Assembly (NCBI GenBank): GCA_030062745.1
Contig: CP099842.1
Span: 558,001-622,000 of the forward strand
Reading direction: 5' to 3'
DNA: 64,000 bases
Source: Capitulum mitella
Lineage: Eukaryota; Arthropoda; Thecostraca; Pollicipedomorpha; Pollicipedidae
The position numbers and the translations under genes were made by a program. Under the pieces are notes generated by a model. That model was given only the letters and a program-made list of their open reading frames with translations, did not search any database and had not been told where the DNA came from. Of this stretch, positions 723 to 45,942 are shown piece after piece (the first letter of the stretch is position 1; every line of letters begins with the position of its first letter).

Positions 723-1934
723 CCCTATTCCCGGCAGGGGGGGCGGAATCCGCCCCCCCTTCGGGTTTTTTGCTTGCCAATTCCAGGCTTTTTGACGCAG
801 CTTCACGAAACTTGGTGACTTTTCCTAGCTATTCCTTCTACGCGCCGTGACAAAATTTCGAAATTCTATTTTGCTCAGGGGCGGAGCCAGGCAACGTTTT
901 TGGGAGGCACCTCAGGTCATTTTTGGCCATGTTGAGGGTAAAAGGAAAATGTCTGCCAAAAACAGAGTTTTTAAGATAGAACTTAAAACTTTATATGAAT
1001 TTATAGCTAAATAGTTGGGCAATGTGCATATATAATTTTGTTTATCTGAGGTAACTTTACAAGGTCAGGTCAAGGTCAAAAGTCGAAATTTGGTTTTTCG
1101 CAATAATTTCGGCATCGCTTTTTCAAATGCCAAACCCGGAATATATATGACGTAGAAAGATGCCCTCTACTTGTGTACCAAGTTTCAGCTTGATATCAGG
1201 TCAGGTCACGGAGCTATGACCTAAAATGTCAGTGCACGTACCCTATATCGCAAAAGCCAAAAAATGAATTTTTTGGAATAGAGTGAATTTAATCGATTAA
1301 AAACGTTTACAGATAATATTGAATGCACACGACATCATTCCAGGTGACCCCAAGGTCACTGGAGGTCATTTAAGGTCAAAGGTCACAAGTTGATCTGAGA
1401 AACGTGTGACCATGACAGTTCCCCCTTTTTTATGTCCCTGGCACCGCCTATGTTAACATTATACAAACATTGTAATGCGATTTGTACTTCTTTAGTATAA
1501 CATGACTAGCAGAAGCTAAAAAAGTGTTTTGGTCTCTTTTGTTCATTCCGTTATTGGAAAACTAATCCCCCTATTTTTGAAACCCTGTGAACGCCCATGA
1601 ATTTTCTCAAAATTTCAAATTTGCATACCCATGGTAAAAGCCCTATCCATAATCTCTCGATTGATGCCAGTTTCATCGAAATCGGTCCATAAACAACGGA
1701 GTTATAAGAAGTCAAAAAGTACCCCCCATTTTGACATTTTTGCCCCCCTGTATCCACAAATTTCAAAATTTTGAAAATTTCTTTTGATAAAAATGTAGGT
1801 CACGTCACGGCAAATCGATTGCCGTTTGTTGCGATGAAATCGGATAAGTAGTTCTCGAGATCTCAGGGGGGGGGGGCCGAATCCGCCCCCCCTGCCGGGA
1901 ATCGGCCATACCGTCTAGCCCTCCGGGAATAGGG
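723..1934 (+). mobile_element. TTAA-bordered MITE, family A, copy 1
   Basis: A complete non-autonomous element of 1212 bp is flanked by TTAA at 719-722 and 1935-1938. It starts CCCTATTCCCGG and ends CCGGGAATAGGG, a perfect 12-bp inverted repeat. A G-run/C-run hairpin lies about 20 bp inside the left end and a second inside the right end. Unit C has one uninterrupted TTAA at 24609-24612 at the homologous position, so insertion was precise and followed the duplication. TTAA targets and CCC-starting termini are typical of piggyBac-type elements; no transposase is encoded. It closely resembles the copy at 44733-45942. Confidence 0.9.
1353..1385 (+). promoter_or_regulatory. AGGTCA array (DR4-DR4-DR1) in MITE copy 1
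   Basis: Four exact AGGTCA half-sites start at 1353, 1363, 1373 and 1380, giving spacers of 4, 4 and 1 bases. AGGTCA is the consensus half-site of many nuclear receptors; DR1 is the usual spacing for RXR/HNF4/COUP-TF-type dimers and DR4 for TR/LXR-type dimers. A second cluster of three overlapping or abutting half-sites lies at 1062-1078. The pattern is visible directly; actual receptor binding is inference. Confidence 0.6.
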
Positions 1935-1938
1935 TTAA

Positions 1939-3200
1939 GTGTCTTCATCGGTCGGAAACGGTAGAACGGCTCAGATATTAAACCGACAGCGCCTGGCTTG
2001 TTTTCATACCCGCGACAGCCTGCGGGTGTCGAAAAAGGTACTCCATGCTCTCTCGGGATCTAACCGTCGGATCTGAACCGGTCCTCCAACAATCGATAGC
2101 CTTGAGTATTGCGATTCAGAAAGTTATGTTAGTACTATGTTAGTACTATGCTAGCCCTGTTCACGTGACTGGCGTCGTCACAGGTCACATAAAACGCATA
2201 ACACGACGTCGGAAAAACTGACAACGTTTGGTATATCATATCATCGGCAATGCTGGTCTTAGAGCCCTCAAATGGGTATCAAACGAAAGGTAGGATCTTC
2301 TGCATCAGAAGCATGCCAGAATGTAAAAAATATGGGGTCAAGGTCAACCTGGGCCAGGTGAAATACTGGTTTCATTTTATATGCTAAAGACCGATACTTA
2401 CTCGCAGCCGTGTTGATCCACGAGACAAAATGACCGAAGTGGTCCTTCTTATGATCAGTTTTGAATTACCTGCTTTTCATTCAGTCAAGGCCTAGGTCAG
2501 GTCAGATAAGGTCACATTACTCTTCCTGCCAAAGAGCAATAGTTATTCGCGGGATTCCCAACTGCGAGTAGTACTAAACTAAAATGACATCTCGTGATAA
2601 TTAAATCTGCTCTGTCGGCTGCTATTGTCTGCTTCTAAAGGAAAACACAGATTCCAGAGTGTTCACTGTAACCGAAAACTGCGTCTGTGTTTCAGTGTAT
2701 AACGGGGTATAATTTAACCTACGGTGATCTGGTCACGTTTTCGTCAAAAGGTGGCGGTGTTCGGGTAAAGGTACTGGAAATTTTGGGCTCATGGCGTTTT
2801 TTGTTTGGATGTTGGGCCACGCAGAAACAATGGGAAGGGGGAATTGCACTTACCCAAGTAAATTGCGGGTTAGTCTTCGTACTGACTGGTGTTTTTAGGA
2901 ACCGCCTCTTTTTATCATTAACATTACGTCCTTTCCATTACTGCTACTTGAGACACCTGACGTTGACCTCCGTATCAATTTTGAAAGCAATGACATATGC
3001 CAGTGCTAATTTATATCACTCATTACAAAATTTTACACACAACAAGTGCATCCAAAACATTGTGTGAGTGCTGCTGATGGTTATTCATGACGGATCTTAG
3101 GAATCGGAGTTGTCCCGTTTAGTCGAGACAGAAGCTCGCTGTGCGCTGTTTTCTGTACACTACTTGCCACGTGCCATACATCCTTAGATTATCTAGTCTT
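1939..3200. other. Unit A DNA without a recognised gene
   Basis: This stretch lies between MITE copy 1 and the 3' end of the glycine-rich gene and matches unit C 24613-25880. It contains scattered AGGTCA motifs, for example around 2337-2365 and 2490-2515. The part near 2340-2640 is also similar to the inside of the TTAA element at 41368-42681, so it may be an older part of such an element. No coding region could be supported. Confidence 0.5.
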
Positions 3201-3216
3201 GATCACATGTATTTTC

Positions 3217-3222
3217 TTTATT
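3217..3222 (-). other. Poly(A) signal of glycine-rich gene A
   Basis: TTTATT on the plus strand reads AATAAA on the minus strand, about 160 bases downstream of the stop codon of gene A. The same signal is found at equivalent positions in units B and C. Confidence 0.6.
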
Positions 3223-3383
3223 GTCTTTGTTCGTCTTAACAACACACATACATCACTAAAACTTGAGACTAAATCAGTAGTCATCATTGCCCACCTGCAT
3301 GTAAAAGCCTCTTTGAAAGCATTACACCAGGCATTTTAATAGTGGTAAGGGTATCCATGTCCAAAATCATACCCATGTCCATG

Positions 3384-3976
3384 TTACCCTTTGTAGCCAC
3401 CGTATCCATATCTGCGTCCGCCATAATAGTGACCGTATCCGCCATAATAGCGGCCGTATCCATGTCCATATCCACCGTAGTAGCCCCCGAATCCACCTCC
3501 AATGCCACGGAATCCTCCGCCGAATCTTCCGAGTCCGCCGCCAAATCTACCGAACCCTCCGCCGAATCTACCGAATCCTCTGCCGAATCCGCCGAGTCCG
3601 CCGCCGATTCCGTATCCTCCGTATCCGCCAAGATAGCCGGCAGTAGCGACAGCAACCAGGCAGAACAAAACGACCAGCTGAAAAAGTAACATCGTGTCAG
3701 GCGCTTCATGATAGACACTGGGACTACTTTACACGCTCGTTTTCGACGAGCGGTTGAATCGTGCTTTGTATCGATTGGGGGTCGCGACAGTCCCCATGTG
3801 TAGTGGAAGGTGGCCAAATGGCGAATACTGGTGAATGTCAAAAATGTTCGTCACATTATAAATATTTTTAAAGACCTAAGCAACGTAGCAACTACGTTTG
3901 TATGCAGTGGGGACTGTGCCACGACTGCGCTTGACACCCAGCTAATGTGGGGTTTGGGAACTGTGCTTACCTTCAT
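3384..3976 (-). CDS. Secreted glycine/tyrosine-rich protein, copy A
   Basis: This is a two-exon minus-strand gene, join(3384..3677, 3971..3976). Exon 1 codes only ATG-AAG in the context GCCGCC-ATGAAG and is followed by donor GTAAGC. Exon 2 follows a polypyrimidine-AG acceptor (TTACTTTTTCAG) and continues in frame, giving a 99-residue protein that starts MKLVVLFCLVAVATAG. This is a clear signal peptide with likely cleavage after ATA. The mature part is short GGFGRF/GGGLG-type repeats, then a Gly/Tyr/His tail (GGYGHGYGRYYGG) ending GGYKG. A start at 3692 (MLLFQ) would only translate the intron acceptor. Such low-complexity proteins can be cuticle, shell, cement or silk components or antimicrobial peptides; function is not determined. 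The gene is intact, and copies lie at 15566-16100 and 26064-27312. Confidence 0.85.
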
Positions 3977-4043
3977 GGCGGCGGACATGTTGTCAGGACA
4001 CGTGTTCTGCTGTGAATGCTGTGCCGATCATACACATCGTGCG

Positions 4044-4051
4044 ATTTTATA
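4044..4051 (-). promoter_or_regulatory. TATA box of glycine-rich gene A
   Basis: The minus strand reads TATAAAAT about 70 bases upstream of the ATG. Transcription would then start near 4015-4020, with a 5' untranslated leader of about 40 bases. The element is identical in units B and C. Confidence 0.7.
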
Positions 4052-4589
4052 CCAAACTACAACATTTCCTATTTCGCAAAGTCCGTATTTGTGCACGATG
4101 CAAAAAAGCCAACCACCACACCCATTCTGCACCAGAAAGGAGTAACTGGAAATGCAAGAAATTTGCAGACACATGACCACGTCCTGATGAAATTGTGCTC
4201 TCTCGACCGCCTGCAAACACCTAACATTAGCAAGGCTGCGTTTATTGTTCGTGATTTTTAACTTCAACAGGCTGCACCCGGTTAACGCACAGGCAATTTT
4301 GTGCGACTCATAATTGTTGCTCTGATATGTTCCGAACTGACATCTTGGTTTATTAACTCGCGCCCAACCTTGGGGAAGACATTTCCACGCCTCTCAAGAA
4401 CTTTTGGTGGTAACAAAAAAAAAAAACAGCATGCGCAGCACCCTGAAATTTTCACTGTCTTTTCTCATATGCTTTGCGCATATCCTATAGAATGTTCAAC
4501 TCCCGGTAGAGCCAGGTCACTGGCCTGGATCGCGTAAAAGAGGTCAACCTCCAGTTTTTTTAAAAAGTATTTTACAAACCACGCTGTGT

Positions 4590-5181
4590 GACTAATCGAC
4601 CTCAAACTTCTGGAGATAGTAGTCGAGGATATTCTCGAAAATTGCGTTATCTCGAATCTGCAATCAAGGCCAAGAGACCCAAGCGTGCCTCAAATCAGGT
4701 CATGTTCCTATGTCAGGTCAGGTTATATGGTCTACGTTATAAAGCGCCCTACTGATCACGTTTGTGGGATCCAAGGAGCTTTAATCCAAAGGTGCTCCTT
4801 GCCATTCGATTTTCATTGTTATCGATCCTCCGCAGAACACGAATTAAAGCAAAGAAAACGGCTGAATGTAGCTCAGGTCACACTGTTCACAGGGTCATAA
4901 GAGGTCACGTCTGGTCATTGGTTTTCTGGTCTGCCCGTATTTAAAAAATGTTCGTACAGATCCTTTCTACCGTTTGTCAAGAATACAAGGACATCTCGTC
5001 AGCACGGTGAAAACCTCACAAATATCGCGAAACTCGTTTTTTGGAGCCTTCACATGAGCGCACCCAAAAATTATATTTAATGATGTGAATATGGTCTTCC
5101 TAGTTCCCGGACGTTTTGCATGATTGTTTACATGAAAAATATTTTTATTCCTGGAGAAGACTGCTTTCACATGTAAAAGAT
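4590..5181 (+). repeat. Local direct repeat in unit A, first copy
   Basis: This ~590-bp segment (from the GATCGACCTC-like start through the AAAAGATATAT motif) is repeated at about 6268-6870. Units B (about 16705-17305) and C (about 27915-28515) have it once. Unit A has therefore gained a second copy, with a foreign ~1.1 kb stretch between the copies. Confidence 0.75.
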
Positions 5182-6267
5182 ATATGGGCCATTCCATGCC
5201 AACTCAACCAGTGATGTACACGGCACCCCCTCAGATTTTTAGGAAATGAAGTCTTGTGGGGTTCTTCATAGCCCAGATCCCGAATATCGGGTCGAAATCG
5301 CCCTCTAGCAAATAGTTTGGCTGCTACGGTGACGTCAATTTATGACGTCACACAGTGTTAAGCAATTTTTGAAGCGGTGTATCTCCGAAAGTTGATGAGA
5401 TATTTTAAATCGGTCAACGGCATTTCAGAGACAAATGTCTGACGTTTTATTTGTGTATTTGTTTGATTTTTTGACGTTTTAAAAATATATTATATTATCG
5501 AACAAAAATGTAAAGTTAAATTCCAACACTTATGTGGTTTTCGATTTTCTTGAAAATGGGATATATAAAATCTGCATGTTTTCTTACCCTGGAACCGTCG
5601 AGAAAACAATGGGTATCGCACAACATCATATCCTAACGTATCGCGTTCTCCTTGGGCATCCCGCCAGACACGCGCCGGAGCGCCGCGCCGATAGTGGCAT
5701 CCAGGTGGCGCTCGGCGCGGCCGAGACGGCTGAGTCGGAACGGAGCCTGGTGGGGGGAGGGGAGAGGAAGAGGAGGAGGAGGCGGCAGATCACCTGCGTG
5801 ATCTGCGTCTGACAATGAACCGAAGGTGTCTTGTTGGAGACAATGCTCAAGTGTAGGTCTACCATCTGAAGCGACGATGTCTCCCATTACGCATGCAGTT
5901 GTAGAACACCGACAGTCGTGTGCAGTGTGGCTCAGGCGACGGACCTCTGTGTTTCATTCGCGAGAGTGCATTGGTGTGAAATGAAGTCCAGTTACAGAGA
6001 AAAGCAAAAACTCTGTTCAAATCCTTTCGGCTTGCCCCATAGCAAAAAATTTTATAGCCCTGTTAGACCGGTGTCGGCATCATTCATCAGAGCTCACAAG
6101 TCTTTACAAAACCTTCTAACACCTGGCGATAAAGTGTGCGTGAAATGCAGGAAACTAATTCCTAAAAGAGACTTTCAAGCCCGTGGACGTGACGAACCAC
6201 AGCCAGGTCCATCTGGCCAGCCAGCAACAAGAGTGTGATTGATTGTGATTGAACAAGACAAGAGCTG
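5182..6267. mobile_element. Insert between the two local repeats of unit A, possible captured gene fragment
   Basis: The insert is absent from units B and C. It begins GGGCCATTCCATGCC, has an AT-rich first half with a CRE-like TGACGTCA at 5342-5349, then a CpG-rich block (about 5640-5800), then a coding-like stretch at 5918-6238. No transposon ends or target duplication could be assigned. It could be a gene-capturing transposon or DNA brought in by a duplication event. Confidence 0.4.
5918..6238 (+). pseudogene. Fragment resembling a Cys-Asn-Pro-Phe / CxxC zinc-binding N-terminal domain
   Basis: The open frame encodes CSNPFGLPHSK, then about 30 residues later GDKVCVKCRKLIPKRDF, then a Pro/Gly tail (EPQPGPSGQ). 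A C-x-NPF motif followed by a CxxC about 40 residues on is the pattern I associate with the N-terminus of uncharacterised invertebrate zinc-binding proteins often found near transposons; this is from memory. The frame runs into the second local repeat and stops, so if real it is a truncated exon. The CpG-rich sequence just upstream could be its 5' region. Function unknown. Confidence 0.35.
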
Positions 6268-6870
6268 TGTGTGATTGATCGACCTCAGGCTTTCAGAGAT
6301 AGTAGTCGAGGATATTTCTAAGAATTGCGCTGTCTCGAATCTGCTGACAATCTGCCAAGCGTGCTTCATATCAGGTCATGATCCTACGTCAGGTCAAGCC
6401 ATATGATCTACGTTACATAGCGCCCTACTGATCACGTTTGTGGGACCCAAGGAGCTTTAATCCAAAGGTGCTCTTTGCCATTCGATTTTCATTGTTATCG
6501 ATCCTCCGCAGAACACGAATTAAAGCAAAGAAAACGGCTGAATGTATCTCAGGTCACACTGGTCACAAGGTCATAACAGATCACATCGGGTCATTGGTTT
6601 TCTGGTCAGCCCGTATTTAAAAAAATGTTCGTGCAAATCCTTTCTACCATTTGTCGAATATACATGGATATCTCGTCAGCACGGTGAAAACTTCACAAAT
6701 ATAGCAGAACTCCTTTTTTGGGGCCGTCACATGAGCTCACCTTAAAATTATATTTAATGAAGTAAACATGGTTTTCCTACTTCCCGGACATTTTGCATGA
6801 CTGTTTACGTGAACAGTCTTTTTATGCCTGGAGAAGCCTGCTCTCACGCGTAAAAGACATACATTAAACC
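6268..6870 (+). repeat. Local direct repeat in unit A, second copy
   Basis: This is the second copy of the segment at 4590-5181. It continues without a break into the rest of the unit, so this is the copy in its original context on the right side. Confidence 0.75.
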
Positions 6871-8768
6871 TCGCCCACACATGGGGGATGCCACTCCCCA
6901 AGTGGTTTTCTTTGATGCACTCCATGCGATTAAAAACAAAAGTCCGACTTTTTCGGTAGCTGCTTTTTTGTCCTTTCTGCAGATTTTCTGAAAATTTCAG
7001 GTATTGCCGACCTTTGGTTTGTTAGATATGACCTTGATCTCGAGGGCATGTCACCCCAAAGCGCGGTGTACTGTAAAATGTGTGAGAAAGGCGTCAAGTG
7101 CACCGCAGATGTCGTATCTGCTGATTGTTTTGCAAACTGCATTCCACATGCGTCCGAAATATTTACTTAGACCTACGAAAGATCAATGTCAGAGTCAATG
7201 TTAGATTGGGCCACGAATAATATCACATTTTGCAAACATCTAATGCATTTCGAGGAAGCTGATCTGCTAGACATCTAGAACATGTCTTTTTGAAACACAT
7301 AGCAAACAAACAAACACGCACGCACACATGCAGAATCACAAATACCAAGCAATATATTCCTATCATCCTGGACTTTTTCTGAGTCCTCCCAGGAGTAACC
7401 ATTGAGAATTATCTTTCGAAATGTTATATTACCTATCTTGATATTAGATCATAACCTAATGACATCTCATCAGGTCATGTTAGGTTGTGACCTGACTTTC
7501 CACAGTGTGTTTCGACGCTGGAAACGCAGTGCGACACCATTTGTTTTTTAGGGGAGGGGATTTTGCAGTGAATATCCAATTCGTGCTGTTCTGAGCGTAT
7601 GAGGTATTTGGTCTCAGATGACTTCATTTCGCTTGCTGTTATATTCCTCGTCTGCACATGCATCAGGTTCGACAAATCACTTCAGACTGTTTGGATTTAC
7701 GAATACGCATCGATACGTGACAAATTGCCTTCAACGTAGCGTCGGAAGCGGATTCTGTCGAAAAGAGCGTATGCTGGCCTTACCTGAAGTGTGACCAACT
7801 GACTCAGACAGTAAAACTGTACGTCAGAAGAACGACCAGAAGCTTCTCTATCTGACTTAGGATCACCGATGGTTGTGCCTTTGCTAAATGGGGAATAATG
7901 CTCGAGGTATTCCGTTTGCAGCCCGAAAAGTAAAGTCTTAGTCTGACATGACTTAGAAGGTCAAGATTAGTCCTAAGAAGATGAAATCGGATACCGTTAG
8001 ATTCATTATGTGTCAAGCAATCTGCTGGTTTTTGTCGCGAGACTCTATCTCAGTTACGAGGTGAATGGCTTGGAGGTGGCAACCCTCCAGGTGCGTTCTA
8101 GGATGGCGGAGTGGCAAGTGCGGGTGAGAATTAACTTATGACTGAACTTTTTTGGCTCCAGGCCATGTTCAGGATTAATCATTTAACAATTGGGGGCAAG
8201 CCAGTCGAAGGCCGGGGCTCCCGCTAATTTAATTACAGAATTCAAAAAGCTGAGGGACGCAGCATTCAGCTACCCAACCTCAGAGCTGCAGACACCAGCA
8301 TGAACTACAAGATGTAAAAACGCATAATTTACATCAATGCGAATCGACACAACGTGAAGTTTTTCATACATTTTGACTTTCTATAATTAACATATGCAAT
8401 GCTTGATTGGAGGGGGAGGGCCAGCAATTGCCTGCCCATCCTTTATCTTTGTTTTTAATAATTTTCACAGTAATAATGGATCGCTGACATTTTATCTATC
8501 TCCTTCTGTCTCCTAAGAACATCTTTTGCCGTGCCGAGGTCAGATGGTCTCCAAAATGATTGTACTTACTCCGCAGCACAGATGGTATGGATGAGAGTAA
8601 TTGAGGTCAACCAAGGTCATGTAGCTTAGGTGAAAATGAGAAATTGTGCAAATGGGAAATACGGGATTTATAGGACTTTGGCATTGCATGATGAATACAG
8701 GTGCTCCATAGCATAGGCAAGTTAGATCATATCAATTTAAATCATCAAAAGTAAGGTAGTAAAGATAT
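6871..8768. other. Unit A DNA without a recognised gene
   Basis: Collinear with 17290-19250 in unit B and 28500-30360 in unit C. It contains an AC/AAAC-rich microsatellite-like stretch near 7300-7335 and scattered AGGTCA motifs (about 7460-7490 and 8605-8620). Short open frames here differ between the three copies and show no conserved protein, so none is called. Confidence 0.5.
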
Positions 8769-8789
8769 ATACCACACTTTCTCTTTCCT

Positions 8790-9010
8790 CTTTTGCCTTC
8801 AACAGGGCTAAGAATGGCCTGAGATGCCTCCCAGAAACGTTGCCTGGTTCCGCTCCTGAGCAAAATACAACTACGAAATTTTGGTGCAGTACGTAAAAAG
8901 AACAGGTAGGAAAGCCGATCAACCTTTGTGAAGCTATGTCAAAAATCCTGGAATTGGTAAGCAAAAAACCCGAGGGGCCGAATTCAGCTCTCCCTATCGG
9001 GAACATGGTC
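8790..9010 (-). mobile_element. Eroded 5' end of a family A TTAA MITE
   Basis: Read on the minus strand, this matches the first ~220 bases of family A, including the stretch reading TTTTGCTCAGGNGCGGANCCAGGCAACG with mismatches. The terminal CCCTATTCCCGG is degraded and no TTAA flank survives. It lies exactly where unit A loses about 5.2 kb relative to unit C. Confidence 0.65.
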
Positions 9011-9109
9011 AAAGTTCGCACTTTGAAATCAAAGGCACATTGCATTTTGAAATAATGGAATCATGCGCATCATCAGAATACATAAAAAGGGTAATATTTG
9101 GCAAATGTT

Positions 9110-11201: not shown

Positions 11202-11429
11202 GTACTGGGTAGGGATGCACCGGATCGGGATTTTTGTGATCCGGCCGGATACCGGATATGCCGGATCGGGGTGCCGGATATCCGGCCGAATATCCGGCCG
11301 GATACCGGATATTATGTTTACATGTTTTTATTTACCATTTTTATTGAAATAATGAAACCGAAAAGACTGAATAGAAAAGAAAAACATGGGAAACTGAACA
11401 AAATTGGTAAAAAATGCCCACAGCTTGTG

Positions 11430-12592
11430 AGTTGATATCTTCAAGGCCAAATGGGGTGGAAAAGGTCAACTTTGGACACTTTATCGGCCTGTACATGCCA
11501 TTCCGTACAACTTTTCGAACGAAACGGGGTGTTTGTTGGGCCGTTAAAACGTGGAATACGATAACTTCCATTCATTTGGCGTCTTGACTGGGAATTTTGG
11601 GTCGAGGTCATGTCAGGTCAATGACCTGTGACGTCATTTTTATAATCTTTTACAGATCAGATTTCGAACAACACGGGACAGTTTGAGCGTAAATGAGGGC
11701 GCGACATGTATCTTTTGGCGTATTTTTAGTGAAGATAGCCAACATCAGTACATCTGGTCATTTCCAGCGTTTGTATTTCTGTATGTATGTATAGCTATGT
11801 ATGTATATCAATGTCAGTATCAATATGCCAAACGTGTTTTAGAAGGGTCTTTGAATGCGTATTTCACACAAATCGATGTATTGCAAAACAAATCTGGACC
11901 AGGTCACAAAAACCTGCCCTTGACCTTTGATGACCTTGGCCTGAAATGACTCTGGCATATACATATGCGTCTGCATGTGCGCACACGTGTCTTTATTAAG
12001 GTCTTTGAATGCATATTTCATACAAATCGATATGTCGCAGAACAAATCTGAGCAAGGTTACAAGATATTTGACCTTGGCCTTTAACGACCTTGACCTTCA
12101 CTGACCTTGGAATATGTAAGCGTATCAGTGTGCGCACACGTGTTTTTATTAGGGCCTTCGAATGCATATTTCATACAAACTGACATCTTGCAAAGCAAAT
12201 CTGGATCAGGTCACAAACCTTGACCTTTGATGCCCTTAACCCTTATTGACCTTGGCTGTGGCCTTGGTACGTCCATCGCTAATGCCCGAATGACATCGCC
12301 TGACTGTGTTCAAACAGCAGTCTTAAGAAGAACGCCAGTTCTTTCACAAAGTTCCCATTTGTCGGCGACAACCGTCGTTTTCGTGATGTTTGCCTGACTT
12401 CAAATGCTTGAAACTTCAAAATTTCCGGCCGATTTCCAATTTTTCTACGCCATTCGACGAGTTATTCAATTGCCATAAATGCCACAAAGTAACAGCAACC
12501 AGCTCAGATGCGTTCTCGAGATATTCAAGAAGAGCAGGTGGGGGGCACAAAAAGACCTCCATTCCAGTGCGCTTGTTAAAAGACAGCTACAG
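11430..12592 (-). repeat. R2 repeat (AGGTCA-rich), reversed, inside the hAT-ended element
   Basis: Read on the minus strand, this matches 42686-43845 along most of its length and 23181-23520 at its start. On the minus strand it begins right after a TTAA with a motif like CAAGCGCACTGGAATGGAGG. The TTAA-bordered start and nearby G/C-rich inverted segment resemble the MITE families here. The other terminus could not be defined. The middle is a three-monomer tandem array. Confidence 0.7.
11840..12290. repeat. Three tandem ~154-bp monomers inside R2
   Basis: The anchor AATCTG starts at 11891, 12045 and 12198, giving periods of 154 and 153 bases. Each monomer also carries a GAATGCNTATTTCA-like motif, one or more TGACCTT (AGGTCA) motifs and a GCGCACACGTGT-like motif. 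The second R2 copy has the same three-monomer layout. Confidence 0.85.
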
Positions 12593-12654
12593 CTGATTCG
12601 AGCTGTAAAAACAACGGGTGTCATAACGCGTTCCGGCTGGAAGGTTTGGAATCT

Positions 12655-13410
12655 CCAGAATGTACGTGACAAAAAAATATTGGTGGCAAACAAGGTTCGG
12701 TACCGAAAGAGCAAGAGGTCACCCCAGGCCACCCAAAAACAAGAGGTCGCCCAAAAGACCCGCATCCGGAAACTGTCCCGCGGATCACATGAAATCGGAA
12801 AGAACGGGGCATTGCCATGGACGACGAAAGCTACTTCACCTACCACGAGAGGTATATGTCAGGAAACCTTGGGTACTCTGTTGGAGCACGTCCAGCAGAA
12901 GTCCAGCAAAAGTACAACTGAGGCCAGAGAGCAAGTTTCCCCGCAATCTTTTCGTGTGGCCCGCCATCTATCTCAGGGGTGTGACAAAGCCGGCTATCAT
13001 GCCAGGTATGGGTAATGTTGATGGTAACATGTACCGTGAGAAGTGCGTAGGAGATGTGCTCATCCCATATTTGGATGAGTACTGTTTCGAGGGGGACATC
13101 TTGATCTGGCCAGACTTGGCCAGCGCTCATTATGCGAAGAAAACGTTCAAGTTGCTGGAAGAGGCCAGAGTGCCGTATGTAGTGCGTGACAGCAGTCCCC
13201 CTGTGTGAACCAGGTGTGTCCTACTGAGGACATCTGGGCATCATTAAGCAGAGGATGTATCAAGGAGACTGGTACGTAACATCCAAAGTCGCCCTAAAGC
13301 GCTGGATGAGCCAGGTGATCGCTGCTCTGGACCAAGAGATACCGCGTTAAATGCTGGTGCGCGTACCCAGGCGCGTGCGTCTTGCCGACAGATGAGAGGC
13401 GATGGAGATG
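12655..13410 (+). pseudogene. Tc1/mariner (IS630-type) transposase relic
   Basis: Pieces of a DDE transposase are spread over all three plus-strand frames. They include the first-Asp motif MDDESYFTYHERYMSG near 12818, the segment NMYREKCVGDVLIPYLDEY near 13027, the second-Asp motif WPDLASAHYAKKTFKLL near 13106, and PTEDIW near 13220, which corresponds to the final acidic motif PIEDFW of this family. A C-terminal Leu/Arg-rich remnant follows to about 13400. Internal stops and frameshifts make it non-functional. Its own inverted repeats were not found. Confidence 0.75.
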
Positions 13411-14821: not shown

Positions 14822-15398
14822 GTAGATTCCAGAATGCTCACTGTAACCGAAAACTGCGTCTATGCTTCAACGTATGACGCCGTATAATTTAACCTATTGC
14901 TATCTGGTGAATTTTTCGTCAAAAGGTGGTGGCGTTGTTTGGGTAAAGATACTGGAAATTTGGGGCGGCTGGCGTTTGTCGTTCGGATGTTGGGTCGCGC
15001 AGAAACAAGTGGGGGGGGGGGGGAATCATCCCTACCCAAGTAAATTGCGGGTTAGTCCTCGTATTGATTAGTGTTTTTAGGAACCGCCATTTTTGAGTAT
15101 TAACATTACGTCCTTTCTATTAATGCTATTTAACACATCTGATGCTGACCTCCGTATCAATTTTGAAAGCTGTGACATATTCCAGTGCTAACTTATATTA
15201 CTCGAAACACCATTATGCACACAGCAAATGTATCGGGAACATTGTGTGAGTGCTACTGATGGCCATCCATGACGGATCGTAGAAGTCCGAGTTGTCCCGT
15301 GTAGTTGAGACAAAAGCTCACTGTGCACTGTTTTCTGTACACTATTCGCCATGTGCCATACATCCTTAGATTATTTAATCCTCATCACATGTATTCTC

Positions 15399-15404
15399 TT
15401 TATT
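15399..15404 (-). other. Poly(A) signal of glycine-rich gene B
   Basis: AATAAA on the minus strand, about 160 bases downstream of the stop codon of gene B. Confidence 0.6.
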
Positions 15405-15565
15405 GTCTTTGTTCGTCTTAACAACACAGATACATCACTAATACTTGAGACTAAATCAGTAGTCATCATTGCCCGCCTGCATGAAAAGGCGTCTTTGAAA
15501 GCATTACACCAGGCATTTTTATAGTGGTAAAGGTATCCATGTCCATGACCATATCCATGCCCACG

Positions 15566-16100
15566 TTACCCTTTATAACCGCCGTATCCATATCCGTGTC
15601 CATAATAATGACCGTATCTGTGTCCATATCCGCCATAATAGCGACCGTATCCATGTCCGTGTCCACCGTAGTAGCCCCCAAGTCCACCTCCAATGCCACG
15701 GAATCCGCCGCCGAATCTTCCGAGTCCGCCGCCAAATCCGCCGAATCCTCCGCCGAATCTACCGAATCCTCCGCCGAATCCGCCGAGTCCGCCGCCGATT
15801 CCGTATCCTCCGTATCCGCCAAGGTAGCCGGCAGTAGCGACAGCAACCAGGCAGAACAAAACGACCAGCTGAAAAAGTAACATCGTGTCAGGCGCTTCAT
15901 GATGGACACTTGGGCTCGTTTACACGCTCCTTTTCGACGAGCGGCTGAATCGTGCTTTGTGTCGATTGGGGGTCGCAATAGTCCCCATGTGTAGTGGAAG
16001 GTGGCCAAATGGCGAGTGCTGGTGAGTGTTGTGGGGACTGTGCCACGACTGAGCTTGACGCCCAGCTAATGTGGAGTTTGGAAGCTGTGCTTACCTTCAT
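15566..16100 (-). CDS. Secreted glycine/tyrosine-rich protein, copy B
   Basis: Two-exon gene, join(15566..15868, 16095..16100), with a 226-bp intron bounded by GTAAGC and TTTTTCAG. Exon 1 codes Met-Lys only. The spliced product is 102 residues. The signal peptide is identical to that of copy A (MKLVVLFCLVAVATAG); the Gly-Phe repeat region has fewer Arg residues, and the tail has an extra His/Tyr segment (GHRYGHYYGHGYG). It ends GGYKG like the other two copies. The indels between copies keep the glycine-rich frame open, suggesting the protein is or was under selection. Role unknown: secreted structural or antimicrobial are both possible. Confidence 0.85.
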
Positions 16101-32415: not shown

Positions 32416-32419
32416 TTAA

Positions 32420-33637
32420 CCCTATTACCGGCAGGAGGGGGGGGGGGGCGAATTCCGCCCCCCTCGGGTTTTTTGCTTGCCAATTCCAGGCTTTTTGATG
32501 CAGCTTCACGAAACTTGGTGAATTTTCCTAGCTATTCTTGCTACGTGCTGTGACAAAATTTCAAAATTCTATTTTGCTCAGGGGCAGAGCCAGGCAACGT
32601 TATTGGGAAGCACCTCATGCCATTTTTGGCCATGTTGAGGGTAAAATGAAAATGTCTGCCAAAAAATAGAGTTTTTAAGATAGAACTTAAAACTTTATAT
32701 GAATGTATAGCTAAATAGTTGGGCAATGTGCAGATGTAATTTTGCTTATCTGACGTCATTTTAGAAGGTCAGGTCAAGGTCAAAAGTCAAAATTTGTTTT
32801 TTCGCTGTAATTTTGACACCGTTTTTTCAAATGCCAAACCCGGAATATATATGACGTAAAAGGGTACCTTCTACTCGTGTACCAAATTTCAGCTCGATAT
32901 GAGATCGGGTCACGGAGCTATGACCTAAAATGTCAGTGGCCGTATCCTATATTGCAATAGTCATAACATAAAATTTTTGAAATAGAGTGAATTCAAATGA
33001 TTGAAAACGTTTACACATAATATCAAATGCACACGAGATCATTCCAAGTGACCCCCAAAGTCACTGGAGGTCATTTAAGGTCAAAGGTCACAAGTTGATC
33101 TGAGAAACGTGTGACCATGACAGTTCCCCTTTTTCATGTCCCTGGCACCGCCTATGCTAACATTATACAAACATTGTAATGCGATTTATACTTCTTTAGT
33201 ATAAAATGACTAGCGGAAGCCAAAAAAGGGTGTTTGCCTCTTTTGTTCATTCAGTTGTTAGAAAACTAATCCTGCTGTTTTTGAAACCCTGTAAAGGCCC
33301 ATGAATTTTCTCAAAATTTCAGATTTGCGGACCTATGGTAAAAGCTCTATTCATATTCTATCGATTCATGCCAGTTTCATCGAAATCGGTCGATAAATAA
33401 CGGAGTTATAAGAAGTCCAAAAGTACCCCCCATTTTGAAATTTTTGCCCTCCTGTATCCACAAATTTCAAGATTTTCGAAATTTCTTTTTATAAAAATGT
33501 AGTTCACGTCACGGCAAATCGATTGCCGTTTGTTGCGATGAAATCGGATATGTAGTTCTTGAGATCTCAGGGGAGGGGCCGAATCCGCTCCCCCCTGCCG
33601 GGAATCGACCATACCGTCTAGCCCTCCGAGAATAGGG
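32420..33637 (+). mobile_element. TTAA-bordered MITE, family A, copy 2
   Basis: A 1218-bp element with TTAA at 32416-32419 and 33638-33641. It starts CCCTATTACCGG and ends GAGAATAGGG, so each terminus has one change from the family A consensus. It shares diagnostic bases with copy 3 (for example GACGTAAAAGGGTACC) that copies 1 and 4 lack, defining a subfamily. It carries the AGGTCA array at 33058-33090, where the first half-site has decayed to AAGTCA. Confidence 0.9.
33058..33090 (+). promoter_or_regulatory. AGGTCA array in MITE copy 2
   Basis: One decayed half-site (AAGTCA, 33058-33063) and exact AGGTCA at 33068, 33078 and 33085. The spacing is the same DR4-DR4-DR1 as in the other family A copies. 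Confidence 0.6.
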
Positions 33638-33641
33638 TTAA

Positions 33642-34845
33642 CCCTATTCCCGGCAGAGGGGACTGAATCCGCCCCCCCTCGGGTTTTTTGCCTGCCAATT
33701 GCAGGCTTTTTAACGCAGCTTCACGAAACTTGGTCACTTTTCTTAGCGATTGTTGCTACGTGCTGCGACAAAATTTAAAAGTTCTATTTTGCTCAGGGGC
33801 GGAGCCAGGCAATGTTTTTGGGAGGCACCTCAGGCCATTTTTGGCTATGTTGAGGGTAAAAGGAGAATGCCTGCCAAAAAGAGAGTTTTTAAGATGGAGC
33901 TTAAAACTTTATATGGATGTATAGCTAAATAGTTGGGCAATGTGCAGATATAATTTTGCTTATCTGACGTCATTTTAGAAGGTCAGGTCAAGTTCAAAAG
34001 TCAAAATTTGTTTTTTCGCTATAATTTCGGTGCCGTTTTTTCAAATGCCAAACCCGGAATATATATGACGTAAAAGGGTACCTTCTACTCGTGTACCAAG
34101 TTTCAGCTCGATATGAGATCGGGTCACGGAGCTATGACCTAAAATGTCAGTGCGCGTACCTTATATCGCAATAGCCATAAAATGAAATTTTTGAAATAGA
34201 ATGAATTGAAATGATTGAAAACGTTTAAAGATAATACTAAATGCACATGAGGTCATTCCAAGTGACCCCAAGGTCACTGTAGGTCATTTAAGGTCAAAGG
34301 TCACAAATTGGTCTGAGAAACGTGTGACCATGACAATTCCCCTTTTTTTATATCCCTGGCACCGCCTATGCTAACATTATACAAACATTGTAATGCGATT
34401 TGTACTTCTTTAGCATAACATGATTAGGAGAAGCCAAAAAAGTGTGTTTGCCTCTTTTGCTCATTCAGTTGTTAGAAAACTAATCCTGCTATTTTTGAAA
34501 CCCTGTGAACGCCCATGAATTTTCTCAACATTTCACATTTGTGTATCCATGGTAAAAGCTTTATCCATGATCTCTCGATTCGTGCCAGTGTCATTGAAAT
34601 CGGTCCATAAACAACGGAGTTATAAGAAGTCCAAAAATACCCCTGATTTTGACATTTTTGCCCCCTGTATCCACACATTTCAAAATTTTCAAAATTTCTT
34701 TTCATAAAAATGTAGTTCACGTCATGGCAAATCGATTGCCGTTTGTTGCGATGAAATTGGATATGTAGTTCTCGAGATCTCAGAGGGGTCGAATCCGCCC
34801 CCCTGCCGGGAATCGACCATACCGTTTAGCCCTCTGGGAATAGGG
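33642..34845 (+). mobile_element. TTAA-bordered MITE, family A, copy 3
   Basis: A 1204-bp element starting directly after the TTAA that ends copy 2, with TTAA at 34846-34849 on its right. It starts CCCTATTCCCGG and ends TGGGAATAGGG. The right G-run is reduced compared with copies 1 and 4. The shared central TTAA shows either insertion of one element into the target duplication of the other, or tandem duplication. Confidence 0.9.
34271..34303 (+). promoter_or_regulatory. AGGTCA array in MITE copy 3
   Basis: Exact AGGTCA at 34271, 34281, 34291 and 34298, spacers 4, 4 and 1. Confidence 0.6.
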
Positions 34846-35217
34846 TTAAGTATCTTGTTATCGATGTTATCTGATCTTAGATGTAAATGGCCAAAACAGA
34901 GCGAAGGCAGAGTGGCGTTGGAAACAAAGATAATGCGCCAAATTGACAATTGCTCTATGAATTAAATTTCGTAGAGAAGATAGCTAATGGGGCAAGTAAG
35001 AACGGAAAAATGATGATTAATCAACGCAAAAGAAAAAAAGCAATTAGGCACTGCTATTTGTTGGCTGACGCACCATCACGTCCGGAACGACACTACAAAA
35101 CATTAGCGGACATCTCAGGAAATTCAGCTACGCGATGGAGCGCGCGTGTCGCTAACCATGGCAACCCACATGTATTTCTTACCTTGGCCGTGTGTGAGTC
35201 TGCTTAAATCGCTTAAG

Positions 35218-37792: not shown

Positions 37793-39380
37793 ACACGGGC
37801 ACTGGTGAACCTCTGATGGACGGCGAAATTGTTGTGGCTTTGTATTTTGACTCCCTTTGTGGCCAGATTTGTTCAGCCGATTTGTGGGAAGACAGCCTGT
37901 ATAATAAACTTGTAAGCCCCAGAAACTGAATGACCTATGTTACGTCCATCAAGGAAAAAGGAGGCCAGACCACATAACACCCTTTCTTTTCTTCAAATTT
38001 ATTGAACCGATTAAAACCAAATTTTATGAAATCTCGGCCCGTATCATGAATTCAGATATCACAAAGCCAGGCTGACCTAGGTCAAGTCAGTCGAGATAAC
38101 CCGTTCAATATTTGAAAGTGCTTTATTTTGTCAAAATGTAACGTAGCACAAGTTGCTGGGCCCTTAGTGCGAGAGACACTCGCATACATTTACAGGCCAA
38201 ATGACGTGCTAAGTTTATCTGAGGTCGTCCGGGGTCAAGCGAGGTCAACCAAATGCTAAATGTAATTGCTGTCATTTGAACATGAACATGAAGAACACAA
38301 AATAATGGTACGTCTTCGATACTTTTCCATGTGTGACCTCAGTCGCCCTGGCCTAACTTGTCTATGCTTTGGGACATCTGTTTCCATCATGCAGACGACG
38401 TCCCCACCGGATTCACGAAATGCTGAATTCTCAGTATTCGGCCTCGGTTTAACTCGATTGACCAACCACAAAAAATTTATGTTTCGGCGTAAATGCATTC
38501 ATCTTGTACAATAACTTCCTACAACCTTTCATTGAAATCCGGGGAATCTATCTGTAGGTAAAGACAGAATGCTTCAGATTCATAGTCTGATTCCAGTTGA
38601 CCTCGATTGACCTGACCCAGGCTACCTGTGCCATTAGACTGTAAACTTATCTAGCAGGGTTACATCCCACAATGTTTTGTAGCTGGCTGTCAGGCAGCAG
38701 TTGTTCCAGGCACAGCATGGTGCCTGAGTTAACACGAATGTTAATGCGATTGGATAATGCCATGGTTTTCTGTCTGACCATGCCTGGGGCAGTATAAACG
38801 TTGATAATCGATAAAACAAACGCTTCAAATTGATTCTTTTCTGACAAGAAAATTGCATCAGCCGGCATTCGATATTCTGACCGTCATTTTTGCATAATAT
38901 CTGGCTATACACTGATTTATTTTCAGGCGTTATTTCGCAAGTTCCATGTTCATGAAAAACATGTCATGGTTACCGTGCCTTTGCATCCTTCGGTCTATGC
39001 TACATTAACCCCTATTTACGTTCTGCTGCATTTTCATTTTTTTCAATTGAAAATTAGAAAAAAAACAATAAATATAACTAAAGAGAACACTGCTGGAGTG
39101 GCCTAAATGACATTATTATGCTGAAATCACTATGGTAGAAATTAGTGCGCGTGGATCAAAGTCTGAGCTTCTCAAATTTCTTTATCTGGCTCTACCGTTG
39201 ATCCTGTACCCTTTATGTTTCCCGTAGAACACATGTCCTTCGTACTCGTGTCATGGCAAATAACATATTTATGAAGTTTTGAGCCTTGTTTTCAGCGCGC
39301 AGAACTTATTCGCACTTGGCGTTGTATTGTTCTTATCGTGTCCCCTGCATCCACCCTTGGCAGTTCCCGGATATTTCATT

Positions 39381-41365: not shown

Positions 41366-41367
41366 AA

Positions 41368-42681
41368 CCCGTCCCCGACTGAGGGGGGTGGTTGGGGTTA
41401 TTCCAAGATTGCGAGAGGATGAACAGAGGCAACGCCACAAAACTTGCACCTTTTCCTTGATCATTATTACATCTTTTGTCAAAGTTTTGACCTCAGGTCA
41501 AGCCAAGTGTCAGGCCTATGTGAGGTCAAGTGGCCTATGTTCAGAAAAGTTTAGCGCCCTGGAACTTTTTCAGAAAACATGATATCACAATGAAACTCTC
41601 AGGGATTAGAAATCTTGATGGATGCAGCAAATCTGCAATCTCATTTGTTTCGGAATTTTTTGGGTCATTGACCTATAGGCAACCCTATTTTCAGAACATA
41701 TCGTCATTTCCTCGGAATCTAAAGGATTTTTTTATAATATTTTTAGTGTCGGGTCAAGGTCAACATAGGTCAGGTGGAATATTGGTCTTACCTTACATGC
41801 CAAAGACCTATAATTAGTCGCAACCGCAACCGCAACTGCATCCACGTGACAAAAGAAAAGATGGAAATGAAACCTTCTCATGATCATTTTGGATTACCTG
41901 CTTTCATGCAGTCAACGTCATTCTAAGTCATGTTAGATGAGACTGCATTACTTTTCCTGACAAAGGGCAAGAATTACCCGCTGGGATTGTTAAATGCGTG
42001 AAGTAAAACTGAAATGATATCTCTTGATAATGAAATCTGCTCTGTCTGCTCCTTACCGGGTCAAGGTCAAACCAGGTCAGGACAATCATTTCCCTTTTCT
42101 GATTAGAAACAATAATTACTCTCTGTTGCTCCAGAATGATCTTCCACAGACAATGTCGTATTTCATTTCGTTTTGACACCTACGCATGTCGTAGCTTGAC
42201 ATGACCTCGCGATGCATGTGGTGAAGCTTGCTAAAAGGCGCATATGGATTTGCTTGTCTAGCTTGAACGATGGGGAAGGTCAGCGGCAACCATTTCTACC
42301 ACCCACAATGCAAATCAAGTTCAAGAATTATCATCTGACCTAGCATGAGCTCTGATGTTGACGTGACACAGCTGTATATCCTTTACGGGAATGTGTCCCA
42401 TAGAAGTAAAAATAATCCATGCACAAATTTGCGAATATTATCAAAAAGCAAAGCATGTTTACACTACCGCCCGAAGAGGGGAAAACATGCATGCAAGGTT
42501 CACTTATGACATTATTCCTCCATGATCTGACCTAGAATGGAAATAGTTTTGATGTCGGAATATATAAAATCGATTGATGGACAGCTACTGAAAGTTTGGT
42601 TGGGCGGGCTCCAACGATTCAGAAGTTATTCACTAAAAAGAGAGGGTGCGCCCTATCTGACACCCCTAAGGCGGTGCCGGT
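41368..42681 (+). mobile_element. TTAA-bordered MITE, family B, copy 2
   Basis: TTAA lies at 41364-41367 and 42682-42685. The left end CCCGTCCCCGACTGAGG matches the end of the element at 21973-23176. The right end, read inward on the minus strand, is ACCGGCACCGCC, a poor inverted match, so the right boundary is less sure. The part 41740-42050 matches non-gene sequence of units A and C (2340-2640, 25020-25320), so those may contain old family B DNA. AGGTCA motifs are frequent. Confidence 0.6.
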
Positions 42682-42685
42682 TTAA

Positions 42686-43845
42686 CACTTGCACTGGAAG
42701 GGGGTCTTTTTGTGCCCCCTCCCCCACTTTCCTTCCCTGTTTTTCTTGAAAATGTCGAGAACGGACCGGAACTGGTTACTGCTACTTTGTGACATTTATG
42801 ACAATTAAATAGCTCGTCGATTGACGCAGAAAAACGAAAATCGGCCGAAAATTTTCAAGTGTCAAGCATTTAAAGCCAAGCAAACATAACGAAAATAGCA
42901 GTTGTGGCTGACAAATGAGAACTATGTAAAAGGACTAGCGCTCTGCCTAAGATTAACGCTTGAGCGCAATCAGGCGACGTTATTCGGGCATCACTGACGG
43001 ATATACCAAGAAAAAGCCAGGGTCAATAGGGGTCAGGGGCCATCAAAGGTCAAGGTAAACCAACTTGTGACCTGATCCAGATTTGCTTTGCAACATGTCG
43101 ATTTGTATGTAATGTGTTTTCAGAGACCCTAGTAAAAACGCGTGTACGCACACTGATACGCTTACGTATACAAGGGTCAGTGAAAGTCACGGTCATCAAA
43201 AGTCAAGGTCAAATATCTTGTGAACTGGTTCGGATTTGTTTTGCGAGATGCCGATTTGCATGAAATATGCATTCGAGGACCCTAATAAAAACATGTGAGC
43301 GCACATGGATACGCTTATATATACCATGGTCAATGCAGATCAAGGTCATCAAAGGTCAAGGGCAACTATTCTGTGACCTGGCCCAGATTTGCTTTGCAAT
43401 ATGTCGATCTGTGTGAAATATGCACTTTAAGACTCTACTAAAAACACGTTTTGCACACTGATACACATATGTATATACATATGTACATATACATACATAC
43501 GTTAGTCTAAAAACTGGAAATGATCAAATGTACCGATGTTGGCTGCCTTCACTGAAAATACGCCAAAAGATGCGTGTAGCGCCCTCATTTACGCCGAAGC
43601 TATCCCGTTTTACTTGAAATCTGATCTGCGAAAGATGAAAAAATGACGGCATAGGTCAATGACCTGACATGACCTCGGCCCGAAATCCTCAGTTAAGACG
43701 TCAGATGAATGGAAGTTGACCTGTTTCACGTTTTAACGCTCAACCAAACATCCTTTTCCCGTTTCGTTCGAAAAGTTGTACGGAATGGCCAGTCCGTGCC
43801 GAGAAAGTGTCCAAACTTGACCTCTTTGACCCCATTTGTCTAACG
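42686..43845 (+). repeat. R2 repeat, most complete copy
   Basis: It begins after TTAA with CACTTGCACTGGAAGGGGG and an adjacent C-run (GTGCCCCCTCCCCC), matches the minus strand of 11430-12592, and includes three ~153-bp monomers. A motif near its start (GTCGAGAACGGACCGGAACTGG, with differences) resembles the subterminal box of the TTAA elements. The 3' terminus is uncertain, near 43845. Confidence 0.7.
43030..43490. repeat. Three tandem 153-bp monomers inside R2
   Basis: The anchor GATTT starts at 43080, 43233 and 43386, a period of exactly 153 bases. Each monomer has AAGGTCA-type motifs, a TTTGCATGAAATATGCA-like palindrome and a GCGCACA-type motif. Confidence 0.85.
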
Positions 43846-43975
43846 ACTGCCTGAAGACTCCCTCGGTTGGCCTGTATGTTTTATGGACACTAGAGGTCCT
43901 CGACACTTAAACGGGCCACGCTCGGCTCAGGAGAAAAGTAAGAGGAATAGGTGGGAAAATTCAGGGAAGCAGGTG

Positions 43976-44160
43976 CAGAATGCTACAATTCATCAGCATG
44001 AAAGGAATTTCAAGATGGTATACGGCCCTAACTGAGAATGCTACAATTCAGCAGCATAATAGGAAACCATCCAATTCAAGATGGCATACGGGTCCTAACC
44101 GAGAATGCTACAATTCAGCAGCATGAAAGGAAGAACCAGCAAATTCAAACTGGTATAGGT
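43976..44160 (+). repeat. Minisatellite, about three ~60-bp units
   Basis: The motif GAATGCTACAATTCANCAGC recurs at about 43979, 44036 and 44103, each time followed by AAGATGG or AAACTGG and a TATACGG/CATACGG-type end. Open frames through it are products of the repeat. Confidence 0.75.
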
Positions 44161-44524
44161 GAGACAGGAGCTCCGATTCAAGAGCACAAGGAACGCCCCA
44201 ATTCAGGCGCACTGGGATAGGAATGAACTAATTTCCAGAGTGGCAATTCAGCCAGCAAGCAGACCTCCCATTCAAGAGGCCAAGGAGAGGGCAAAAGGAA
44301 ACTCCCAAGCCTCGTGGATTATCATTTTTCTGCTATACCTCACTTCACATCACTGCACTGCCGCACACCATCACTGACAACGAAGTTCTGTATCGAGACG
44401 TCCGAGCAGTTTGAGCGCCAGACAGGAAGAGGCCGAGGGCGTGTTTATGCCAAGCTTGTATAAGGAGGTCACGATATATCTATGTAAGAAAAAGGCCACG
44501 AGATAGGCGAGACGAGCGAGACCG

Positions 44525-44700
44525 GCGAGACGCGCGAGACCGCCGGCGCAGGGCGGCCGGCCGGCCGGCCGGGGCGTCGCGGCCCCACGCGGAACAAAGG
44601 CGGCGTAAACACAGATCGCCGGCCGGGTCTGGCGAGACGTGCCGGACCGCCGGCGCAGGACCGGCCGGCCGGGGCTTCGCCGCCCCACGGACAGGGTGCT
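44525..44700. repeat. G+C-rich duplicated block with CCGG runs
   Basis: Two related ~55-60-bp segments (about 44535-44590 and 44645-44695) share GACCGCCGGCGCAGG, a (CCGG)n run and GGGGCNTCGCNGCCCCAC, with a partly shared spacer. It is far richer in CpG than its surroundings. No gene was identified. Confidence 0.7.
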
Positions 44701-44732
44701 ACACGACCGACGGCAACACCATTTGACCTTAA

Positions 44733-45942
44733 CCCTATTCCCGGCAGGGGGGGGGGGCGGAATCCCCCCCTCGGGTTTTTTGCTTGCCAATTCCAGGCTT
44801 TTTGACGCAGCTTCACGAAACTTGGTGACTTTTCCTAGCTATTCCTTCTACGCGCCGTGACAAAATTTCGAAATTCTATTTTGCTCAGGGGCGGAGCCAG
44901 GCAACGTTTTTGGGAGGCACCTCAGGTCATTTTTGGCCATGTTGAGGGTAAAAGGAAAATGTCTGCCAAAAACAGAGTTTTTAAGATAGAACTTAAAACT
45001 TTATATGAATATATAGCTAAATAGTTGGGCAATGTGCATATGTAATTTTGTTTATTTGAGGTCACTTTACAAGGTCAGGTCAAGGTCAAAAGTCAAAATT
45101 TGTTTTTTCGCAATAATTTCGGCGCCGTTTTTTCAAATGCCAAATCCGGAATATATATGACGTAGAAAGATGCCCTCTACTTGTGTACCAAGTTTCAGCT
45201 TGATATCAGGTCGGGTCACGAAGCTATGACCTAAAATGTCAGTGCACGTGCCCTATATCGCAAAAGCCAAAAAATGAATTTTTTGGAATAGAGTGAATTT
45301 AATCGATTAAAAACGTTTACAGATAATATTGAATGCACACGACATCATTCCAAGTGACCCCAAGGTCACTGGAGGTCATTTAAGGTCAAAGGTCACAATT
45401 TGATCTGAGAAACGTGTGACCATGACAGTTCCCCCTTTTTTATGTCCCTGGCACCGCCTATGCTAACATTATACAAACATTGTAATGCGATTTGCACTTC
45501 TTTAGCATAACATGACTAGCAGAAGCTAAAAAAGTGTTTTGGCCTTTTTTGTTCATTCCGTTATTGGAAAACTAATCTCCCTATTTTTGAAACCCTGTGA
45601 ACGCCCATGAATTTTCTCAAAATTTCAAATTTGCATACCCATGGTAAAAGCCCTATCCATAATCTCTCGATTGATGCCAGTTTCATCGAAATCGGTCCAT
45701 AAACAACGGAGTTATAAGAAGTCAAAAAGTACCCCCCATTTTAACATTTTTGCCCCCCTGTATCCACAAATTTCAAAATTTTGAAAATTTCTTTTTATCA
45801 AAATGTAGTTCACGTCACGGCAAATCGATTGCCGTTTGTTGCGATGAAATCGGATAAGTAGTTCTCGAGATCTCAGGGGGGGGGGCCGAATCCGCCCCCC
45901 TGCCGGGAATCGGCCATACCGTCTAGCCCTCCGGGAATAGGG
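44733..45942 (+). mobile_element. TTAA-bordered MITE, family A, copy 4
   Basis: A 1210-bp element with TTAA at 44729-44732 and 45943-45946 and perfect CCCTATTCCCGG/CCGGGAATAGGG ends. Over long stretches it is nearly identical to copy 1 at 723-1934, suggesting recent movement from a common source. It has the same hairpins, AGGTCA arrays and right subterminal box. Confidence 0.9.
45363..45395 (+). promoter_or_regulatory. AGGTCA array in MITE copy 4
   Basis: Exact AGGTCA at 45363, 45373, 45383 and 45390, spacers 4, 4 and 1. Confidence 0.6.

Follow-up and report, generated by a model that had tools for sequence, protein, structure and literature searches.

The 64,000-nucleotide stretch of Capitulum mitella DNA analysed here (contig CP099842.1, positions 558,001 to 622,000; hereafter the window, with coordinates counted from its first letter) contains four complete copies, A1 to A4, of a repeat that we call family A, and each copy carries AGGTCA half-sites as direct repeats (DRs) with spacers of 4, 4 and 1 bp. 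Judged by its sequence, family A is best filed as a high-copy, non-autonomous family of piggyBac type. The reading that we consider probable is that the DR4-DR4-DR1 arrays were copied with the family consensus and decay like the rest of each element, atop a wider DR4 excess. The arrays had been described in a first-pass annotation of the window, and their coordinates and spacers are borne out in all four elements; a second cluster of half-sites accompanies them:

1353–1385, plus strand: DR4-DR4-DR1 array of A1; four of four half-sites exact
33058–33090, plus strand: array of A2; three of four exact, the first half-site being AAGTCA
34271–34303, plus strand: array of A3; four of four exact
45363–45395, plus strand: array of A4; four of four exact
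1062–1078, plus strand: second cluster of A1, AGGTCAGGTCAAGGTCA, with overlapping and abutting half-sites

The annotation had also contrasted 15 exact half-sites out of 16 with the variable remainder of the elements. The count stands, AAGTCA at 33058 being the exception, but the contrast is not significant in the window: variation affects 1 of the 24 half-site columns and 150 of the 1,014 other columns (one-sided Fisher test, p = 0.11). The second cluster is kept, as had been claimed, in 11 of 12 half-sites: A3 has one changed site (AGTTCA) and the other three copies have none. The genome searched measures 477 Mb in 16 contigs and contains 4,427 exact DR4-DR4-DR1 arrays, 2,189 on the forward and 2,238 on the reverse strand. 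Reversed patterns or reversed words served as controls for pattern and DR counts throughout, and since the reversed array pattern occurs 0 times, the array is not a product of chance. Thousands of consensus AGGTCA arrays genome-wide likewise uphold the idea of a mobile family that places them at many sites.

Class and spread of family A

The complete elements, their empty counterparts and the family's other remnants in the window are as follows (TIR, terminal inverted repeat):

719–1938, plus strand: element A1, complete, 1,220 bp; TIR and TTAA at both ends; paralogous empty site at 24609–24612
32416–33641, plus strand: element A2, complete; right TTAA common with A3
33638–34849, plus strand: element A3, complete, in tandem with A2; TIR and TTAA ends
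44729–45946, plus strand: element A4, complete; differs from A1 at 34 of 1,218 positions
24609–24612, unstranded: empty TTAA, paralogous to the A1 insertion
21456–21459, unstranded: empty TTAA in a paralogous unit, paralogous to the A2+A3 double insertion
8790–9012, minus strand: left-end fragment of family A
50116–50923, plus strand: old family A relative, about 65% identical; decayed array with changes at 8 of 24 half-site bases
57393–58385, minus strand: old family A relative, about 66% identical; decayed array with changes at 6 of 24 half-site bases

TTAA stands at both ends of all four window copies, and of 24 of the 30 copies sampled through a neutral 28-bp anchor that lies outside the array (the misses are L034, L037, L043, L045, L046 and L054). 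With up to three mismatches allowed, this anchor matches 9,449 places genome-wide. The left TIR, TTAACCCTATTCCCGG, starts with CCC beside the TTAA; A2 has one change in it, and the other three copies have it exact. At the right end A1 and A4 carry its inverse, from which A2 and A3 each depart by one change. The same genome holds 118 matches to the piggyBac transposase (PF13843), several with long open frames. Among the 20 of these loci examined, 17 have TTAACCC at one or both ends (L013, L014 and L027 do not), and the TIRs of the 20 are of the kinds TTAACCCATTAACGCCC, TTAACCCTTTAGTGCCC or TTAACCCATTAGTGCCC, or none seen, all unlike that of family A. Their TTAACCC ends come in at least two kinds. 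The listing of stop-to-stop frames, which covers those of at least 130 amino acids, contains none inside A1 to A4.

We file family A as piggyBac-type because of these TTAA ends, the empty sites, and the piggyBac loci of the same genome with TTAACCC ends. The empty sites at 24609–24612 and 21456–21459 fit insertion of family A after local duplication; segmental duplication as the origin of A1, A2 and A3 was considered and rejected, because the paralogous sites are empty. Two side observations concern targets: A2 and A3 form a tandem double insertion with a single TTAA (33638–33641) in common, and L045, a family A copy, has CTAG rather than TTAA on either side, possibly a non-canonical target.

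In the mechanism that we propose, family A would have inserted at TTAA, its transposase presumably supplied in trans. The AGGTCA arrays would have belonged to the ordinary family consensus and multiplied along with it, each inserted copy's array then decaying much like the rest of the element. The four window copies would thus share the array because of a recent common consensus, not through selection on each array. The arrays are good consensus sites all the same, and a nuclear receptor may bind some of them.

Substitution in half-sites, spacers and background

Preferential conservation of the half-sites, which had been claimed for the window copies, did not survive the comparison proposed with it, that of substitution in half-sites and in adjacent bases. 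This was run on two samples chosen without reference to the array, one of 89 copies (out of 90) covering the region 1232–1580 and one of 29 full-length copies (out of 30 found by the anchor), and half-sites did not change more slowly than spacers. For instance, among the 89 copies half-sites differ in 54 of 2,128 cells (2.5%) and array spacers in 18 of 801 (2.2%), so that the former are lost as often as the latter (Mann-Whitney p = 0.79). Differences affect 1,563 of 24,294 cells in the non-CpG background and 478 of 8,339 in the non-CpG flank of about 50 bp. Per-position medians are 0.0225 for half-sites, 0.0112 for spacers, 0.0225 for background and 0.0283 for flank, and half-sites do not separate from background (Mann-Whitney p = 0.12). 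Of the 89 copies, 52 have no change in any of the four half-sites.

The full-length sample agrees, with mean mismatches of 0.029 in half-sites, 0.015 in spacers and 0.048 in non-CpG background (half-sites against background, p = 0.49). Over the whole element, 203 of 936 sliding placements equal or undercut the array, and four exact sites are seen in 15 of the 29 copies; random 24-position sets give 8.1 (standard deviation 5.1), and 12% of them score as high. In diverged copies the array has decayed: four relatives (five alignment rows, L006 and L033 being one locus) show changes at 8, 6, 6 and 7 of their 24 half-site bases, or 27 out of 96 in all, with a per-copy background of 0.21–0.31. Half-site-specific conservation is accordingly rejected by the window, 29-copy, 89-copy and diverged-copy comparisons.

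Several observations nevertheless weigh against the reading of arrays copied with a piggyBac-type consensus and decaying like the rest. An autonomous element with family A's TIR was not found among the 20 of 118 piggyBac loci examined, and miniature inverted-repeat transposable elements (MITEs) are usually shorter than 1.2 kb, which makes family A long for a MITE. The 89-copy sample is biased to young copies, because all of them match the 28-bp anchor exactly and all lie on contig C1. Within it, the half-site mean of 2.5% lies under a local background mean of 6.4%, only 9 of 208 sliding placements across 1232–1580 are as low as the array, and an array 6-mer is intact in 86% of copies, where background 6-mers average 65% (quartiles 45–85%). 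The background mean is raised by a minority of highly variable columns, probably subfamily markers. L145, a relative of about 65% identity fetched through its DR4, has its first three half-sites exact and in register, while the two spacers that separate them have changed. The 33-bp array block as a unit may be under weak constraint.

Constraint of this kind bears on the suggestion that the arrays are functional response elements, with a receptor such as EcR-USP, a TR/RXR-type receptor or HNF4/SVP binding them in vivo and controlling nearby genes, including the glycine-rich ones. Published systems lend this some plausibility. Drosophila EcR-USP drives yeast reporters through DR1, DR4 and DR5 among others, and DR4 is the most efficient element for the EcR-USP of another insect (PMC5494300); a TR orthologue is reported in Daphnia (PMC2045677). 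Candidates for DR4 binding therefore exist in arthropods. The earlier description of these repeats as receptor sites stands to the extent that DR1 and DR4 of AGGTCA can serve insect EcR-USP in yeast (PMC5494300), but not as regards conservation of the half-sites. In vivo function is further favoured by exact consensus half-sites at known spacings in 4,427 exact arrays, and by an array block that is among the lowest in local variation. Set against it are half-sites kept no better than spacers, their decay in diverged copies, and paralogues of the A1 and A2+A3 sites that exist without the element; on balance such a role may be real for these arrays, but we hold it doubtful.

AGGTCA beyond family A

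AGGTCA richness is not confined to family A. With redundancy masked, the window (41.0 kb) contains 82 AGGTCA against 19.3 expected by base composition, and the word ranks first of 640 hexamers with equal GC and second overall, after ATATAT. Other non-redundant loci (79.7 kb) hold 86 against 38.5, rank 32 overall, behind A-rich and GC-rich words. In ten arbitrary 5-kb stretches from ten contigs there are 50 where 24.3 are expected; the word again leads the 640 and comes 70th of 2,080 overall. AGGTCA is thus about 2-fold over-represented in the genome samples.

The excess has a preferred spacing. Genome-wide counts of exact AGGTCA repeats cover DR1, DR3, DR4 and DR5, and DR4 dominates with 32,896 (reversed control 499), as against 949 for DR3 (153), 8,361 for DR5 (148) and 8,878 for DR1 (208). 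The DR1 and DR5 counts come largely from family A: at least 4,427 DR1s lie within its exact arrays and the spacer is other than A in 24 of the 100 DR1 matches listed (counted by eye), while 66 of the 100 DR5 matches listed have the spelling of the second cluster, 11 are one change off and 23 are left. The 100 DR4 matches listed comprise 41 with family A-like spacers (at most one change from CTGG or TTTA), 12 with GGTC and 47 others with 36 different spacers. These matches span the first 3 Mb of contig C1, the reverse-strand ones ending at 0.70 Mb, and were classified by spacer alone, which errs in both directions: TCGG at C1:1909576, beside TTTA, probably belongs to family A, whereas ATGG at C1:725536 (L141) does not. 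Extrapolated from these contig C1 listings, the DR4s whose spacers resemble neither family A nor GGTC would number about 15,500; the corresponding figure is about 1,900 for DR5 and no more than 949 for DR3.

Even with family A removed, 163 kb of non-redundant sequence contains 8 DR4s, 4 overlapping pairs (DR-1), 2 DR0s, 2 DR5s and 0–1 at each remaining spacing up to DR12, and the 8 DR4s belong to about six families; none of seven other words put to the same test exceeds 2 at any spacing. The DR4 excess is specific to exact AGGTCA. AGTTCA, which counts as a receptor half-site under the RGKTCA consensus (PMC1785376), has 595 DR4s genome-wide against 195 in the control, many of them (AGTTC)n, and the transition variant AGGCCA has 1,087 against 1,292. 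This specificity is mild evidence for the copying of exact founders and against selection by a tolerant receptor. Among the papers listed in literature searches on AGGTCA in repeats and genomes, the titles and abstract openings showed nothing on AGGTCA-rich invertebrate repeats.

Two repeat families of the window, both unrelated to family A and with approximate outer limits, carry DR4s of their own:

11210–13320, unstranded: repeat family D; DR4 at 11605 and 11921
2012–2620, unstranded: repeat family F; DR4 at 2499
24690–25301 and 41749–42193: stretches related to family F

Twenty further loci were taken by position from the DR4 matches listed, with those of family A omitted. Six belong to family D (L129, L133, L134, L137, L138 and L144) and two to family F (L130 and L147), while L136 and L142 form a third pair. 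L145 is the relative of family A mentioned above, and L148 matches the family's left end at 59%. The (AGGTC)n tract L132 shows weak similarity to L143, L139 and L140 have 56 bp in common, and L141 resembles window positions 38588–38708; L131, L135 and L146 have no partner or hardly any. When 21 DR4 contexts, 8 of the non-redundant set and 13 of the twenty loci, are linked leniently with one another and with the family A consensus, 11 components result, one of which contains family A; the ten others become nine when L139 and L140 are joined. Several unrelated repeat families share in the exact AGGTCA DR4 excess.

Family D itself merits a brief aside. In L129, L133, L134 and L137 a DR4 with spacer CCCC, CTCT or CTCC lies where the open frame of the window's family D copy corresponds, and at 12716, the equivalent place in the window, the second half-site is changed. 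The family's open frames at 12479–13208 presumably resemble transposase, although no Pfam family matched them. Inside family D are 153-bp tandem repeats with AGGTCA sites (11817–12217 and 43041–43449).

One explanation for a shared DR4 is benefit to the transposon, the arrays having aided germ-line chromatin opening or transcription during amplification, such that DR4-bearing families multiplied and their copies then decayed. If true, this would explain why unrelated repeat families share the motif, and it draws on the nine or ten groups of DR4 contexts beyond family A, on the predominance of DR4 over DR3 genome-wide, and on the 8 DR4s, as against 0–2 at each of DR0–DR3 and DR5–DR12, in the 163 kb without family A. 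The little DR4 excess of the AGTTCA half-site does not favour it, and the family counts are small, so that a few high-copy founders could carry most DR4s; we regard it as a tentative proposal with the odds against it. A stronger version is unlikely: that unrelated transposon families independently gained the exact DR4 through a germ-line host receptor that binds DR4 and favours expression or mobility, in which case tens of thousands of sites might act as a receptor sink or as a ready regulatory network.

Replication slippage would instead make DR4s and overlapping half-sites the worn remains of an (AGGTC)n pentanucleotide repeat, with periods of 5, 10 and 15. True tracts do occur, as in L132 (G000:C1:111063-111993), whose units are AGGTC, AGGCC and variants, and GGTC is the spacer in 12 of the 100 DR4 matches listed. 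In addition, overlapping half-sites (period 5) rank second among spacings in the non-redundant set, with 4, and period 15 is raised in the window when the partner is relaxed. The 47 other DR4s listed, however, match the bases of GGTC in 12, 10, 13 and 12 of 47 cases, which is chance level, and exact period 15 was found once in the non-redundant set. Because of this chance-level match most of these other DR4s are not worn pentamers; the idea that DR4 derives mainly from decayed (AGGTC)n is largely refuted, and slippage as a general account is very unlikely. That AGGTCA is the recognition site of the element's transposase is the least credible explanation, scarcely worth entertaining, and was rejected on array position and on the AGGTCA level at piggyBac loci: each element does contain several copies of one short motif, but the array starts 634 bp from the left end and stops 553 bp from the right; the 20 transposase-bearing loci contain AGGTCA 76 times in 81.8 kb (about 40 expected from even base use), which is no more than in the genome samples; and this DR4 is also found in families that do not resemble family A.

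Known parallels and the layout of the window

Repeats that distribute binding sites have been described in other animals. Alu is a short interspersed nuclear element, whereas family A is by contrast a DNA element of the piggyBac type. In primates, Alu likewise multiplies consensus receptor direct repeats genome-wide, in the form of DR2 retinoic acid response elements: the human genome contains 108,582 DR2s, 90% of them in Alu, as are half of the consensus DR4s (PMC1785376). Those DR2s arose largely via CpG deamination, and several of them recruit RAR by chromatin immunoprecipitation (PMC1785376), whereas the family A consensus already holds DR4-DR4-DR1. HNF4alpha sites in Alu are similar in being receptor sites carried by a repeat, although of another class (PMC3252374). 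In Caenorhabditis, CERP2 and CELE2 MITEs serve as germline promoters under HIM-17 and so resemble family A in distributing potential regulatory DNA; the factor there is a THAP-domain protein and the co-opted promoters are conserved between species (PMC9757741), whereas the half-sites of family A carry no conservation signal. The piggyBac-related MITEs of corals are likewise described in terms of MITE, piggyBac and TTAA (PMC2872659); family A is set apart by its internal AGGTCA arrays and 1.2-kb length.

If some of the arrays are bound, one family has put thousands of consensus receptor sites across the genome, much as Alu has for RAR, and the duplicated units of the window, with one paralogue carrying the element and another lacking it, provide a natural comparison. 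If nothing binds, family A counsels caution in treating consensus motifs in young repeats as conserved regulation. The part most worth following is the genome-wide DR4 peak over unrelated repeats, which opens to test whether transposons converge on host receptor sites or a lucky motif was present in a few founders.

Searches for other content gave 0 matches to the array in the viral contigs scanned, 0 Rfam matches at gathering scores, 0 tRNAs, and 0 Pfam families for eight open frames. The window holds units of about 11 kb in three repeats (1935–8790, 14824–21968 and 24609–32419), with a glycine-rich minus-strand frame in each, and a fourth such frame lies on the opposite strand:

3387–3728, 15569–15919 and 26067–26420, minus strand: glycine-rich open frames
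59193–59753, plus strand: fourth glycine-rich open frame

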